A stretch of 64,000 nucleotides of DNA. Source: Pleurocapsales cyanobacterium LEGE 06147 (GTDB taxonomy: Bacteria; Cyanobacteriota; Cyanobacteriia; Cyanobacteriales; Xenococcaceae). Position numbers and translations under genes: made by a program. The stretch covers positions 1 to 64,000 of the forward strand of contig JADEWQ010000007.1 in assembly GCA_015207585.1 (NCBI GenBank). The letters run 5' to 3'. The notes under the pieces are model-generated. The model searched no databases and was not told the DNA's origin. It saw only the letters and a list, made by a program, of their open reading frames with translations. Each line of letters begins with the position of its first letter. The stretch's first letter is position 1. Below, in pieces: positions 2,901-30,741 of this stretch.

Positions 2901-5051
2901 ATGGCACCAAAAGCGGACAAGCTGAAACAAACTCTCGAAAATGTTCAGCTTTTTTTTAAAAAAAACGAATATGAAAATTTTGAAAGTATAGCCAAAGAAT
3001 TAGAGAAACTACAAACTCGATTGGAACAAAAAAAGCTAACTATTCAAATAGTCAGTCAAAGTCCAATTTTAGCTCAAGCATTATTTGATTTTATCAAAAC
3101 TAACAAGACTCTACTAGAGTTTTCTCAACTCAAATTTAATACTCTTCCTAAAACTCCTGAAAAAATTAAACCACAACAGTTTCCTAGTCTTAAACTGAGG
3201 CGATCGCGAGAAAATATAACTGATATATATCAATACTATGAACTTTCAGAAAAAGAGCAGTTAATTGGCAGAGATCCAAAAAGTTTTATACCTATAAATT
3301 CCAAACATTATCGAGGGGTTTCCTGGAATCATGCGATTATTAAAGCTGTTTTAGGTGAAGGCAATCTAGTTCAATGGGAAATATGGGATCTTAAGAGTAC
3401 TAATGGTACTTTTATTAATGGAAAGCGAATAAAAAAGTGTCAAAGACTGCAACTAAAAGACAAAATTACTTTAGGTTCTTCCAAACCCAGTCGCGCTATT
3501 GCAGAACTGATCTTTGACTTTCATAACGATCCTTCAGAACCGAACAGCGATTACTGGGAAATTATTGATTGCGATCTGCTCTTATTGGCGATCGATACTC
3601 GACAGAATCTTTCTACACAAGAACAAGAGTTTATTAAAAATATTGATAGTACTTCCATCTCTAGACAATTTTTGGTTGCCGATCTTCCAGATCCTCAAAC
3701 AGAGGAAATAAATGTAAAAAATGCAGAAGCTAATTTAGCTCAATTAGAAAACTGGCTGAAAAATGAAGCTACAAATTCTAGTTTTGAATTAGTTCCTTTA
3801 TTTCTTAAACCTTATTACGATCGAAACCAGAATAAAGAAATCGAATCTTGCTTTCAAAAAAAACAAGAGCATTTTTTTAAGTCTTTAGATAATTTAATTA
3901 AAGGTCAGCCAGAAAATTTATTAGCTAATCGCCTTACTGTTAAGCTTATCCAAATTTTAGAACCTGTAGAACCTATTTTAGAGCGTCACCAAAAAGCACT
4001 TTCAGAAAAAATCGATCGAGAAAAACAAAAATTAGAAGAACTAACCAATATTGAATTAAAAGGAGCTGTCAAACAAGCTATTAATCAAATTAATGAAGAT
4101 AAGGATAAGTTTTTTAAGCAGGTTAAACTAGAGCTAGCTCAAGCAAAAGGCGGTTTGTTAGATAATTATAGTAAGTATAGTATTATTTATAAAATACAAG
4201 AATTAGTCGAAAGTTTGAAACTCAAAATTTTAATCAAAAATGGACAAAAATATATTCGTTTGAGCGATGAAGCGAATATTGAATCTCAAGATATTAATAA
4301 GATTTTAATTGTTTTTTGTACTTCTTATTTAAAAGAATGGATAAAAGAAGAATGGAAAAAAATCTGTGAGGTTTATAATAATGGTGGATTAAATGCTTTG
4401 CTACAGAGGGCTTACGCAGCGGTCGATCTTATTCCTTCTCTACTACAAGAATCACCTTTTGCCAGTCCTCAATCTATAAATATGCATAATATTTTTTTAA
4501 TTTCATTTGCTGGAATTAGCTGCGAACTACCCCACAAACAAATATCGTTGGGAAGTTACATAATGAAGCAACTAAGAAGCCAAATGATGCAAATTATGAT
4601 GATGCTGACCCTTGGGCTTTCTCTTATTGGTGTTTCAGCTAATAAAAATCAGCTTATGAAAGATCTTTCTAGTATTTTTAATCAACAACCTTGGATATTT
4701 GGATTGGTAGTTTCTGTAGTTACCGTGTTGCTAGTTAATAGTTACAGAAAAGAGAACGACAATAAAATTGAAGAAGTAGAACAAAAATTAAAAAAAGATG
4801 TAGCAAATTATTATCAGTCTTTTACGAAAAATTTGCTTGAAAAGATAATTCAAGATTTAAATTTAGCTTTAGAAGTAGAAGATAATAAAATCAATAATTC
4901 TCTAAAGCTGGTAAGCGATATGTATAATAATTATATTTTAGAATTAGAAAAGCAACAAACAGAAATCAAGAAGAATCTTGAAGAATATAAAAATCAACAA
5001 AGAAATTTAGAAAAAGATCTGTCTGAGTTCAACAAACTTAAACGTTTATAA
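2901..5051 (+). CDS. FHA protein with degenerate dynamin-like domain and two membrane helices
   Basis: A 716-residue protein. After a short helical start, residues about 120-200 form an FHA domain (LIGRD, GVSWNHAII, STNGTFINGKRI). Flanking segments resemble a dynamin-like GTPase: IQIVSQSP sits where a P-loop would be but lacks GxxxxGK[ST], and DCDLLLLAID resembles the strand before switch II. Residues 340-540 are helical. Two hydrophobic helices (about 560-580 and 596-616) form a hairpin, and the last 90 residues are charged coiled coil. This suggests an FHA-guided membrane-associated pseudo-GTPase, which is inference. Codon use is very AT-rich, like the neighbouring kinase and unlike chlP. 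It lies 47 bp after the broken channel gene. Confidence 0.65.
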   Translation: MAPKADKLKQTLENVQLFFKKNEYENFESIAKELEKLQTRLEQKKLTIQIVSQSPILAQALFDFIKTNKTLLEFSQLKFNTLPKTPEKIKPQQFPSLKLRRSRENITDIYQYYELSEKEQLIGRDPKSFIPINSKHYRGVSWNHAIIKAVLGEGNLVQWEIWDLKSTNGTFINGKRIKKCQRLQLKDKITLGSSKPSRAIAELIFDFHNDPSEPNSDYWEIIDCDLLLLAIDTRQNLSTQEQEFIKNIDSTSISRQFLVADLPDPQTEEINVKNAEANLAQLENWLKNEATNSSFELVPLFLKPYYDRNQNKEIESCFQKKQEHFFKSLDNLIKGQPENLLANRLTVKLIQILEPVEPILERHQKALSEKIDREKQKLEELTNIELKGAVKQAINQINEDKDKFFKQVKLELAQAKGGLLDNYSKYSIIYKIQELVESLKLKILIKNGQKYIRLSDEANIESQDINKILIVFCTSYLKEWIKEEWKKICEVYNNGGLNALLQRAYAAVDLIPSLLQESPFASPQSINMHNIFLISFAGISCELPHKQISLGSYIMKQLRSQMMQIMMMLTLGLSLIGVSANKNQLMKDLSSIFNQQPWIFGLVVSVVTVLLVNSYRKENDNKIEEVEQKLKKDVANYYQSFTKNLLEKIIQDLNLALEVEDNKINNSLKLVSDMYNNYILELEKQQTEIKKNLEEYKNQQRNLEKDLSEFNKLKRL

Positions 5052-28029: not shown

Positions 28030-29781
28030 TTAATGGACCTCAAAGAAGCGATCACCTCGGTGCAGTTTTTCTGCCATTTGATAAGTTTGTCCTTGAGACC
28101 GCTTAGTAGGAGCATGAGCGGCTAAATACCTTGCTGCAGCCACAAGAACGTGAATTCCTGCTTTGCTCTGACGCAGTTGCTCGTACTGACAGAAAGCTGC
28201 TTCCATTGCCTGAATGGTGTGGAAATCGCGGTCTTCCCGCAACAGCAATTTTCCTAACATTGCTAGCAATCGGTCGGAATTACCTCCACTGTACAGGTAA
28301 CGAGCGACTAACTTACCCGCCTCATTAACCTGTTGTTGTCGATCTAGCAATGCTGGCAGTTGTTCCAGTAACTCTTCTGGTTCGGCAACTGCCGATTCTG
28401 GTTCTGGTAGGCGAGCGGGTGGGACATTCAAAAAGCGGTTGAGATAAACGGTCATCGCTGCATCGAAAACGCCTCGCAACAGAAGTAGTGAAGGTACTCG
28501 TCGCAATCCTTGTTGTACGGCATTGGCGAAAGTAAAAGAATGATGTGCCGTATCCCAATCCCAAAAGTCATTATTGGTAGAAAATTGGGCAATTCGCAAG
28601 GCGGCAGCATAAGTTACAGTTCCGGCTAATTCTGCTGCGGTAGCACCATCTCTTAGTGCCGCTAGAAGAAAGTTGGCGATCGCCTGGGGGTCTTCACCTA
28701 ACAAAACCGCTACCAGTTGCTCGCTACCTTGCCAAGTTCCCCGTTGGGAAACTCCAGTAGCAACGGCTTCATCTAACTGTTGGAAAGCTCTTTCTAAAAT
28801 TGCTACCAAATCTATGGGATAACGCCAAGCATTCGATTCTTCCTTTCGTTCGGCTTCGGCATAACCTCTAACTAGGCTAGTTAAAACCAAGGAGGCATTC
28901 TGCCATCCCGTTGCATCTAGAGCTTCCAAGGCTTTATTAGTAAAGTCAAGAGTGTGTCCGCCATCGAGATAGCGATGGTCGGTAGCAGCAGCAAACAACA
29001 TTTGGGCTATTTGCTTCTCATTTGCTCCCATTTCAATAGCCGAAACTAAACAGCGTTCTGCGCCTTCAGCATCGCGAACTTCAATAAATTGGCGAAACCA
29101 GTTTTCTAGTAGAGATAATTTAGTTTCTGTTGGCTCTGAGGAAGGTAACGGCTTTTGCACGAATCGAGGGGGTTTACCCGCACACTCGGAAGCTACCGCC
29201 GCCAGTCCGTGATAGAGGGCACGAGGTCGGTCTTTTTCGTCGAGATAAGGCAAAAGATTCATCATGCAAACGTGCATGGTCAAACCTGCGCCCCAGCCGC
29301 GATCGCGATAGCGCACGCCGAAATCTAACCCCATCTTAAAGGGTTCGGTCGCGTCTGTTCCTTCAGCCAACAAAGCCAGGACGGATTTGGCAATTACGAG
29401 AGAAATACTTTGTTCTAAGCCATCAATTAATCTTTGCCTAGCATAAGTTTGATTGTCGAGATGGGAAGATAGATCGACCCACACTTCTTCCGACCTAATT
29501 TGTACTGGAAAAGAGCGTACGTCATCTGCCCAAGGATCGAAGGTGCCGCCACTAGCCAGATCGAAGCGGGCATGATGCCAATGACAGGTCAAAATACAGT
29601 TGGAGACAGAGCCTTGGTGTAAGGGAAAGCCCATGTGAGGACAGCGATTGTCGATCGCGTAAATTTGGTCATTATGGTCAAACAAAGCAATAGTTTGTCC
29701 TTCGGCTTGAACCACCAGGTATCCTTTAGCTTCGACATCGCTTTTTTGGGCTACTCGCACGTAGCGTTGATTTCGGTTCAT
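28030..29781 (-). CDS. Rieske [2Fe-2S] protein with large helical C-terminal domain
   Basis: A 583-residue soluble protein. Residues 1-105 form a Rieske-type ferredoxin domain with ligands CPH (about 48-50) and CHWHHARF (about 66-69), the latter in the non-membrane oxygenase style. Residues 110-583 are almost all helical and Ala/Leu-rich, of no fold I can name, but with His and Asp patches (HGLAAVASE, ATDHRYLDGGH) that could bind a metal or cofactor. Divergent from a SufR-like Fe-S regulator across a 90-bp gap with repeated operator-like sites, so expression likely follows iron-sulfur status. Confidence 0.88.
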   Translation of the reverse strand: MNRNQRYVRVAQKSDVEAKGYLVVQAEGQTIALFDHNDQIYAIDNRCPHMGFPLHQGSVSNCILTCHWHHARFDLASGGTFDPWADDVRSFPVQIRSEEVWVDLSSHLDNQTYARQRLIDGLEQSISLVIAKSVLALLAEGTDATEPFKMGLDFGVRYRDRGWGAGLTMHVCMMNLLPYLDEKDRPRALYHGLAAVASECAGKPPRFVQKPLPSSEPTETKLSLLENWFRQFIEVRDAEGAERCLVSAIEMGANEKQIAQMLFAAATDHRYLDGGHTLDFTNKALEALDATGWQNASLVLTSLVRGYAEAERKEESNAWRYPIDLVAILERAFQQLDEAVATGVSQRGTWQGSEQLVAVLLGEDPQAIANFLLAALRDGATAAELAGTVTYAAALRIAQFSTNNDFWDWDTAHHSFTFANAVQQGLRRVPSLLLLRGVFDAAMTVYLNRFLNVPPARLPEPESAVAEPEELLEQLPALLDRQQQVNEAGKLVARYLYSGGNSDRLLAMLGKLLLREDRDFHTIQAMEAAFCQYEQLRQSKAGIHVLVAAARYLAAHAPTKRSQGQTYQMAEKLHRGDRFFEVH

Positions 29782-29791
29782 GGTTCGGGAG

Positions 29792-29859
29792 TTTGTAAAG
29801 TTTTTTCTTTATAAAGAAAGCATAATTAAGCCCCTTGACTTTGTAAAGTTTTTTCTTTA
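29792..29859. promoter_or_regulatory. Duplicated operator-like site in the Rieske/regulator gap
   Basis: The 20-mer TTTGTAAAGTTTTTTCTTTA occurs at 29792-29811 and identically at 29840-29859 (48 bp apart, same strand). The first copy runs into a perfect 16-bp palindrome TTTCTTTATAAAGAAA at 29804-29819. The pair lies between the two divergent starts, the usual place for an autoregulator to bind. No CAAC-N6-GTTG site as described for SufR is seen. Confidence 0.7.
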
Positions 29860-29870
29860 GTTTTGTAACT

Positions 29871-30524
29871 ATGAAGGCAAACTCACTGAAAAAATCATCT
29901 CCAGTACGAACGCGACGGGCTATTATCAACCTACTCAAGCAAGAAGGACCCGCAGATGCCCTAACCTTAGCCGAACGCTTGTCGGTTTCGGGGATGGCAA
30001 TCCGTCAACATCTATATGTCCTGCAAAAAGAACATCTAGTTACCTATACTGAAGAACCGCGTCTTCAGGGACGGCCGGCTAAGCTGTGGCAGTTGACATC
30101 CGAAGCAGACCGTTTTTTTCCTGATGGCTATGCTGAGTTGACTGTGAGTTTACTAGAAAGTATGTCAGAGGCATTTGGTAATGAGGCGATCGCCAAACTG
30201 TTAGAGGTGAGAACGAGAAAACAAAAAAAGTCTTATCGGCAAGAGATACCAAAGAATCATTCTCTACAAAAGCGGCTCGAAACCCTAGCCCAATTGCGTA
30301 TCGATGAAGGATACATGGCAGAAGTAGAACGACGAAAAGATGGCTCTTGGCTATTAATTGAAAATCACTGTCCAATTTGTGCCGCAGCTAAAGCTTGTAC
30401 GGGATTGTGCGATCGCGAATTAGAATTATTTCAAAGTATCTTGGGTGAAGAAGTAAAGGTAGAACGCACCGAGCATATTATAGAAGGCGATCGCCGCTGC
30501 GTTTATCAGATTTGGCTAAAGTAA
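29871..30524 (+). CDS. SufR-like winged-helix regulator with C-terminal cysteine cluster
   Basis: A 217-residue DeoR/ArsR-type repressor. Residues 10-75 are a winged helix (LTLAERLSVSGMAIRQHL, then GRPAKLWQL). The C-terminus has CPICAAAKACTGLC, four Cys within 14 residues, followed by ELELFQ, then a later Cys in RRCVYQIW. This is like SufR and related Fe-S sensors, but the tight CxxCx6CxxxC spacing differs from SufR's widely spaced ligands, so it may be a paralogue with its own target. Divergent Rieske gene is the likely regulon member. Confidence 0.8.
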   Translation: MKANSLKKSSPVRTRRAIINLLKQEGPADALTLAERLSVSGMAIRQHLYVLQKEHLVTYTEEPRLQGRPAKLWQLTSEADRFFPDGYAELTVSLLESMSEAFGNEAIAKLLEVRTRKQKKSYRQEIPKNHSLQKRLETLAQLRIDEGYMAEVERRKDGSWLLIENHCPICAAAKACTGLCDRELELFQSILGEEVKVERTEHIIEGDRRCVYQIWLK

Positions 30525-30612: not shown

Positions 30613-30741
30613 GCGGGGCGTTCAAGGTCTGCCGTACAACGGCAGACACAGCCCCTTGTGTTCCCGCAGAGCCCGTATTCGATTCACGCCCTTGAGAGGG
30701 TGCGGACGCAGGAGAATCCCTACCCGCACCCTCTCAAGGGC
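30613..30741. repeat. Nested palindromic repeat cluster
   Basis: Inner stem one: GTCTGCCGT 30627-30635 with 30639-30647, flanked by GCGGGGC before and CAGCCCC...TTCCCGC after. Stem two: an 18-bp perfect arm at 30688-30705 paired with 30724-30741 (GCCCTTGAGAGGGTGCGG). The outer framework of the first recurs at 40154-40217 with a different inner stem. Confidence 0.8.

Follow-up and report, generated by a model that had tools for sequence, protein, structure and literature searches.

A cysteine-rich winged-helix regulator and a short dyad in its promoter go together across bacterial phyla, and in the genome of Pleurocapsales cyanobacterium LEGE 06147, two copies of this dyad lie in the 89-bp gap between the regulator gene and a divergent gene for a Rieske fusion protein. 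We propose, with a probability of about 0.65, that the regulator is an autoregulatory repressor with an Fe-S or thiol switch that acts through this tandem operator and silences the Rieske fusion gene and oxidative detoxification genes until redox or chemical stress occurs. The whole stretch of DNA that was analyzed, here called the window, comprises 64,000 nucleotides (contig JADEWQ010000007.1, positions 1 to 64,000).

Tandem dyads in a divergent promoter

The Rieske fusion ORF (28030 to 29781, minus strand; 583 amino acids) and the regulator ORF (29871 to 30524, plus strand; 217 amino acids) diverge from an 89-bp gap at positions 29782 to 29870. Within this gap, the 20-mer TTTGTAAAGTTTTTTCTTTA occurs in two exact copies, at 29792 to 29811 and 29840 to 29859, with an offset of 48 bp. 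The sequence-only reading of this DNA had described two identical direct copies. The copies are indeed identical, but each also holds the inverted repeat TAAAG-N6-CTTTA (29796 to 29811 and 29844 to 29859), and the repeat thus consists of two dyads offset by 48 bp, which is more than a direct repeat. Since each copy contains an inverted repeat, each is probably one putative dimer site, giving two predicted operator sites in total. In its 24-bp form, TTTNTAAAGNNNNNNCTTTANAAA, the copy distal from the regulator extends to 29815 with zero mismatches. Where this copy meets another TAAAG, the perfect 16-bp palindrome that had also been reported arises (TTTCTTTATAAAGAAA, 29804 to 29819); it was read directly from the sequence, and an automated repeat search listed no inverted repeat, this palindrome included. 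Downstream of the regulator (about 30688 to 30741), a GC-rich inverted repeat (CCCTTGAGAGGGTGCG ... CGCACCCTCTCAAGGG), each arm about 18 bp long, was noticed by eye and is perhaps a small mobile element or a terminator.

The proximal copy lies within a candidate regulator promoter, TTGACT-17-TAGTTT (29835 to 29863, plus strand), and on the -35 element of a candidate promoter for the Rieske gene, TTTACA-17-TATGCT (29819 to 29847, minus strand). The former is weak, at 8/12 and under the scanner threshold, and the latter is a scanner match at 9/12. The same regulator-promoter frame recurs in two relatives (L034 and L060) as TTGACT-17-TAnAAT, at 10/12, with the proximal dyad occupying the 17-bp spacer. 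Over 27 loci, the divergent-promoter frame whose -35 falls on the proximal operator scored a mean of 6.78/12, compared to 2.26 to 4.44 for 35 other frames. One dimer on the proximal dyad would cover both promoters and would thus block both, and it is from this geometry of promoters and dyads that we infer repression and autoregulation. The promoter-site logic, comprising the dyad, its tracking of the regulator, and its overlap with the candidate promoters, is strongly supported. At this level, there is good support for the earlier suggestion that a separate switch controls the Rieske gene; at the level of the sensor, the support is partial.

That the core dyad accompanies relatives of the regulator across phyla is likewise strongly supported. 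A search of 292 genomes of the window's phylum at E ≤ 1e-40 found the regulator in six, its own included, and relatives were collected at 34 loci from named genomes, two of which (L061 and L063) are SufR by TIGR02702 score. Promoter counts cover 37 non-SufR promoters, with a fragment (L062) and a weak match (L065) dropped and the disrupted L064 kept. AAG-N6-CTT is present in 27 of the 37, against 0.98 expected from a background of 203-bp stretches elsewhere in the same loci; in shuffled promoters, 3.25 sites would be expected over all 37. It shows the greatest excess among 832 combinations of half-site and spacer. The same half-sites with spacers of 0 to 5 or 7 to 12 bp occur in 0 to 5 of the 37 promoters, and AAA-N8-TTT, which overlaps the same sites, likewise occurs in 27/37 but with 2.73 expected. 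Two copies of AAG-N6-CTT are found in 15 promoters, 13 of them with a spacing of 45 to 48 bp, and a single copy is found in 12. The exact core is absent within 200 bp in 10/37, including all three promoters of a cyanobacterial subgroup (L068 to L070). The consensus across relatives is TTTnTAAAG-N6-CTTTAnAAA, and the carriers of regulator and dyad belong to the Cyanobacteria, Bacillota, Planctomycetota, Chloroflexota, Alphaproteobacteria, Gammaproteobacteria, and Actinomycetota. The link between operator and regulator suggested from the window alone therefore extends across phyla.

The gene divergent from the regulator is of at least five kinds (Rieske fusion, VOC, SDR, cupin, and BNR). The Rieske fusion gene is a recurrent partner, found in 13 of the 37 loci from Acidimicrobiia to Evansella, which supports its proposed link to the regulator. 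Partners identified by Pfam scan elsewhere are VOC proteins, short-chain dehydrogenases, one cupin, and BNR propellers, and more VOC neighbors were recognized by eye. In some Gammaproteobacteria (L045:3416-8243 and L062:671-4160), a DUF945 gene and a radical-SAM (Radical_SAM_N/DUF3362) gene follow the regulator, the families having been assigned by scan in L062; in L045, the regulator faces a VOC gene. Upstream of the regulator in L032 (about 3708 to 3938), a stretch looks by eye like the beginning of the SDR gene that faces the regulator in L067 and is possibly a decayed copy.

A search for the 20-mer upstream of other genes had been proposed as a check. In exact form, it occurs in the 6.23-Mb genome only as the window's two copies; at one mismatch, there are two matches, one before a BNR-repeat gene (contig C28) and one before a paralog of the regulator (contig C204). 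The genome has 41 instances of TAAAG-N6-CTTTA versus 20 of a reversed control pattern, and these 41 include the two dyads 48 bp apart in the window and two that are 47 bp apart in the promoter of the paralog. The paralog is 63% identical to the window's regulator and faces a cupin gene. Its homologous start is position 922 of L002, which places the dyads in its promoter; an ORF call with an upstream start would enclose them. Behind the cupin gene (L027:1109-2108), a short ORF starting MAYILHLDSSPRGDRSAQ runs into what by eye is transposase-like sequence; this ORF has no Pfam match and may be an azoreductase-like remnant.

Exact matches to the 24-bp pattern in this genome are limited to the window and the C28 site upstream of the BNR-repeat gene. 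When up to two mismatches are allowed, none of three genomes has more matches to the pattern than to its reversed control (20 versus 23, 2 versus 5, and 15 versus 20), and therefore only the best matches are informative. A weight matrix was built from 12 sites, among them those of the window, C204, and a further genome (G159), which leaves C28 as the only strong site with a score independent of the matrix. The C28 site scored 31.3, second of the 41 dyads. The window, C204, and C28 sites scored 26.1 to 31.7, all in promoters, and a fourth strong dyad (C13:39970; 25.5) is inside an ORF. Middling intergenic dyads are found in L115 (22.3), L103 (21.5), and L108 (21.0). The L103 site (L103:1464-1487, C13:18063-18086) is an intergenic TAAAG-N6-CTTTA 160 bp upstream of a gene named by eye as DnaJ-like, a weak candidate target. 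The C28 BNR gene shares 61% identity with its counterpart in G159, which is divergent from the regulator and likewise has a dyad. In genomes without a close regulator, no dyad was found within 300 bp upstream of Rieske homologs (0/9 loci in 8 genomes), a BNR gene (0/1), or cupin genes (0/2); of the Rieske loci, one is in a genome (G174) with an unlinked regulator of 47% identity, and another (L094) is only a distant homolog.

The regulator as a relative of SufR and ArnR

SufR is described as the cyanobacterial [4Fe-4S] repressor of sufBCDS with the operator CAAC-N6-GTTG (PMC13421787). The window's regulator scored 138.4 bits against TIGR02702 (SufR), under the curated cutoff of 178.8. Among controls, three true SufRs scored 304.5 to 335.9 bits and five other CPIC proteins 115.2 to 140.2. 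The genome's third paralog is a true sufR (333 bits) beside a SufB-domain gene (L031), with a CAAC-N6-GTTG box, CAACAAATTTGTTG, upstream, and the regulator is 35% identical to its product. The observation that the window's site does not match the SufR box holds more widely: an exact CAAC-N6-GTTG is found within 200 bp upstream in 0/37 non-SufR promoters, the window included, and is present in 2/3 SufR promoters. No suf genes are among the neighbors of the window's regulator, which are the Rieske fusion and other families. In a tree of 39 rows (L062, L064, and L065 excluded), 36 non-SufR rows were split from 3 SufR rows at 100/100 support on a long branch, the SufR side being thin. The Evansella regulator was placed among cyanobacterial ones with modest support (83/88).

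The tight cluster of four cysteines noted from the sequence consists of C167, C170, C176, and C180, and there is a fifth cysteine, C210. In an alignment of 33 rows (30 CPIC and 3 SufR; L054, L062, L064, L065, and L066 to L070 left out), C167, C180, and C210 are present in 30/30 CPIC rows and 3/3 SufR rows. C176 is present in 30/30 and C170 in 29/30 CPIC rows, the exception (L059) reading CPIH, and both are found in 0/3 SufR rows. Outside this alignment, L054 reads CPIF and L064 CPIH, and both CPIC-type cysteines are found in L066 to L070, with L070 reading CSIC. The regulator had been called unlike classic SufR. Its cysteine set does differ, but all three SufR cysteines are kept, and by sequence it is best described as a separate clade, a relative of SufR and ArnR that retains these three and adds C170 and C176.

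The regulator shares with SufR a winged helix-turn-helix, an alignable C-terminal domain, and three conserved cysteines. An autoregulated promoter having dyad operators with half-sites 6 bp apart is reported for SufR (PMC13421787), and here autoregulation is predicted. The regulator differs in its two additional cysteines, its half-site (TAAAG in place of CAAC), its location away from suf, its score below the curated cutoff, and its own clade. Plain SufR identity was rejected on TIGR02702 score, clade, box, and linkage.

SufR, Rv1460, and ArnR are each described as Fe-S repressors with three such cysteines (PMC13421787, PMC6034842, and PMC12343034). These are given as C203/C216/C244 in Rv1460 (PMC6034842), C179/C193/C223 in ArnR (PMC12343034), and, in a review, C164/C171/C206 in Synechocystis SufR (PMC13421787). 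The regulator's spacing is C-x12-C-x29-C (C167/C180/C210), and its C-x12-C equals that of Rv1460 (PMC6034842); the published C171 of Synechocystis SufR (PMC13421787) disagrees with the C-x12-C spacing of the SufR rows aligned here. ArnR of Corynebacterium is reported as a [4Fe-4S], NO-responsive repressor of narKGHJI and hmp that loses DNA binding upon nitrosylation (PMC12343034).

The predicted model of the regulator (pLDDT 86.7, pTM 0.60) has a winged helix-turn-helix followed by a domain that is weakly TRAPPC3-like: Foldseek matches of the TRAPPC3 type, 7b6d_G (E 1.4e-3) and 6aq3_C (E 2.2e-3), were weak, with TM scores of 0.37 to 0.49, and the VIA-align list was occupied by the winged helix-turn-helix part. 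ArnR has a winged helix-turn-helix, a TRAPPC3-like sensory domain, and three similarly spaced cysteines (PMC12343034), the TRAPPC3 match being weak here. The regulator carries two more cysteines than ArnR, and in contrast to the narKGHJI and hmp targets of ArnR (PMC12343034), its scanned partners are the Rieske fusion, VOC, SDR, cupin, and BNR genes. No nar- or hmp-type proteins were among ten Pfam-scanned neighbors of the regulator; further neighbors were inspected by eye, and distant targets were sought in its own genome only. Because it shares the SufR/ArnR cysteines and has a weak TRAPPC3 likeness as in ArnR, the regulator likely binds an Fe-S cluster; its cysteines may instead form a zinc site or a thiol switch.

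The Rieske fusion protein

The divergent protein (28030 to 29781) consists of an N-terminal Rieske [2Fe-2S] domain and an all-helical C-terminal domain. The Rieske domain scored 59 bits against PF00355 (cutoff 20.3), and residues 4 to 105 align as a Rieske ferredoxin domain to 2qpz with Z 17.8. Among 12 of 13 homologs that were aligned (L057 left out), the ligands C47, H49, C66, and H69 (C-x-H and C-x2-H) are present in 12/12, and H269, H276, H414, H521, and K283 are invariant in 12/12. The likeness to Rieske ferredoxins of aromatic dioxygenases (2qpz and BphA3) thus covers residues 4 to 105 with all four ligands; the difference is that the domain is fused here with a large helical one.

The whole predicted model is of good confidence (pLDDT 86.4, pTM 0.87). 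In VIA-align, in which helical repeats can score Z 13 by chance, the C-terminal domain matched the non-heme iron dioxygenase 8yxs over 343 residues (Z 15.2, rmsd 4.6, 10% identity) and the hydroquinone dioxygenase PaD (8z4q) over 331 residues (Z 13.7, rmsd 4.5, 10% identity). All of the 50 Foldseek matches listed cover the Rieske part, and the helical match comes from VIA-align only. We take 8z4q and 8yxs to be of the BTG13/questin-oxidase kind. BTG13-type enzymes have four histidines and a modified lysine. The predicted fold of residues ~138 to 563 resembles that of PaD and the Aspergillus dioxygenase (8yxs), and the four invariant histidines may form a similar iron site, but the Rieske protein has an N-terminal Rieske domain besides and no sequence profile match to them. 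A profile search of the PDB, with matches allowed up to E 10, gave no link between the C terminus and questin oxidases, and PF14027 (questin oxidase) matched 0/12 homologs at the same E limit, as far as HMMER's filters permit. A PF14027 search of 194 genomes returned no matches, controls included, and is therefore uninformative. BTG13 is cited in the reference lists of PMC12186474 and PMC13257696. A fold like that of non-heme iron dioxygenases is a good lead for this C terminus. The description of a Rieske protein with no assigned role is thereby extended by a predicted domain, and the gene in its place opposite the regulator varies among the five kinds listed above.

Other genes adjoin homologs of the Rieske fusion. 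One such homolog, in G289 (L091:850-3171), has a globin-family gene immediately before it, at some 25 to 65 bp depending on the start codon chosen, and no operator. A hemerythrin-domain gene adjoins a distant homolog (L094:1480-3702), and a YCII-domain gene follows the Rieske fusion gene on the same strand in L060 (1698 to 2006).

A repressor model and its alternatives

In the mechanism that we propose, a repressor dimer would bind each TTTnTAAAG-N6-CTTTAnAAA dyad. At the proximal copy, it would occupy the regulator promoter between the -35 and -10 elements and also the -35 of the divergent promoter. The other copy, distal from the regulator, would lie around the divergent transcript start. 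Bound repressor would thus silence its own gene and the Rieske fusion gene. Further targets in the same genome would be the paralog/cupin pair and the BNR-propeller gene. The repressor would leave the DNA when an Fe-S cluster at C167/C170/C176/C180/C210 is damaged or reduced, or when thiols there are modified, and the targets would serve oxidative detoxification, possibly against quinones or related aromatics. Binding, repression, cluster, signal, and enzyme activity of this system are all things that we infer. With five or more kinds of divergent gene, a signal common to all of them is a guess, and the idea of detoxification draws on the names of the protein families. By analogy only, the mix of Rieske, VOC, SDR, cupin, and BNR partners recalls the quinone-response regulons of MhqR, YodB, and QsrR, described as small regulons of the redox/electrophile type that include ring-cleavage dioxygenases and reductases (PMC6798810). 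Those regulators are MarR-type proteins and are likened to the present one by regulon content only.

The main rival to the quinone reading is that the regulator, like ArnR, responds to NO or to Fe-S damage in general and that the Rieske fusion acts in nitrosative or Fe-S stress defense, not in quinone detoxification. We consider this possible but on the unlikely side. The spacing of the three cysteines is similar to that in Rv1460 (PMC6034842) and in ArnR, which represses hmp and whose [4Fe-4S] cluster is nitrosylated (PMC12343034). Rieske homologs also lie behind a globin-family gene and, for the distant one, beside a hemerythrin-domain gene; however, both loci lack the operator and the regulator in the stretch examined, and their genomes lack the regulator at E ≤ 1e-40. 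VOC, SDR, cupin, and BNR partners are, moreover, atypical of NO defense.

Less probable still is a structural zinc site in the cysteine cluster, with a C-terminal pocket that binds a small aromatic ligand and so triggers release from DNA with no Fe-S or redox chemistry. Four or five cysteines would fit zinc, the partners of the Rieske fusion, VOC, and SDR kinds would fit aromatic chemistry, and the weak TRAPPC3 likeness (7b6d_G and 6aq3_C) fits with the zinc-bound TRAPPC3 that served as a template for ArnR and the zinc found in an ArnR preparation (PMC12343034). Against this stands the invariance of all three residues that are Fe-S ligands in the SufR/ArnR relatives.

It is very improbable that the repeats arose by chance in an AT-rich promoter or that they serve a different regulator. 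The region is AT rich, the exact core is missing in 10/37 promoters, and loosened matching yields no more sites than the reversed control, but the fixed 6-bp spacer, the recurrence in several phyla, and the absence of the dyad where the regulator was not found all speak against it, and a chance AT-rich repeat as such was rejected by the ranking of the dyad among 832 combinations and by the controls. The idea that the regulator is simply SufR and its site a variant SufR box is scarcely credible, since 35% identity and 138.4 bits are set against a score under 178.8, placement in a clade of its own (100/100 support, SufR being represented by 3 rows only), another half-site, and a sufR already present in the genome.

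Beyond the stress-released repressor that we favor for this genome lies a wider and doubtful reading. The system would then be a cross-phylum stress regulon under a five-cysteine sister of SufR, and its additional cysteines would supply the cluster with a fourth protein ligand that is absent from SufR and ArnR. The fused Rieske/questin-oxidase-type oxygenase, with its own electron donor, would destroy toxic quinols or related aromatics, and the system would have spread horizontally among Cyanobacteria, Bacillota, Actinomycetota, and Alphaproteobacteria. Among the titles and abstract openings listed in searches of open-licence papers, none mentions the regulator family or a Rieske/questin-oxidase fusion.

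The sharpness of the dyad motif makes the closest targets findable in other genomes, and the Rieske fusion is a widespread oxygenase candidate that has no assigned function. Together, the regulator, its operator, and its target set provide a system in which the divergence of SufR-type sensors can be tested, one in which the three ligand-type cysteines have been kept, but new cysteines, a new half-site, and a new regulon have appeared.
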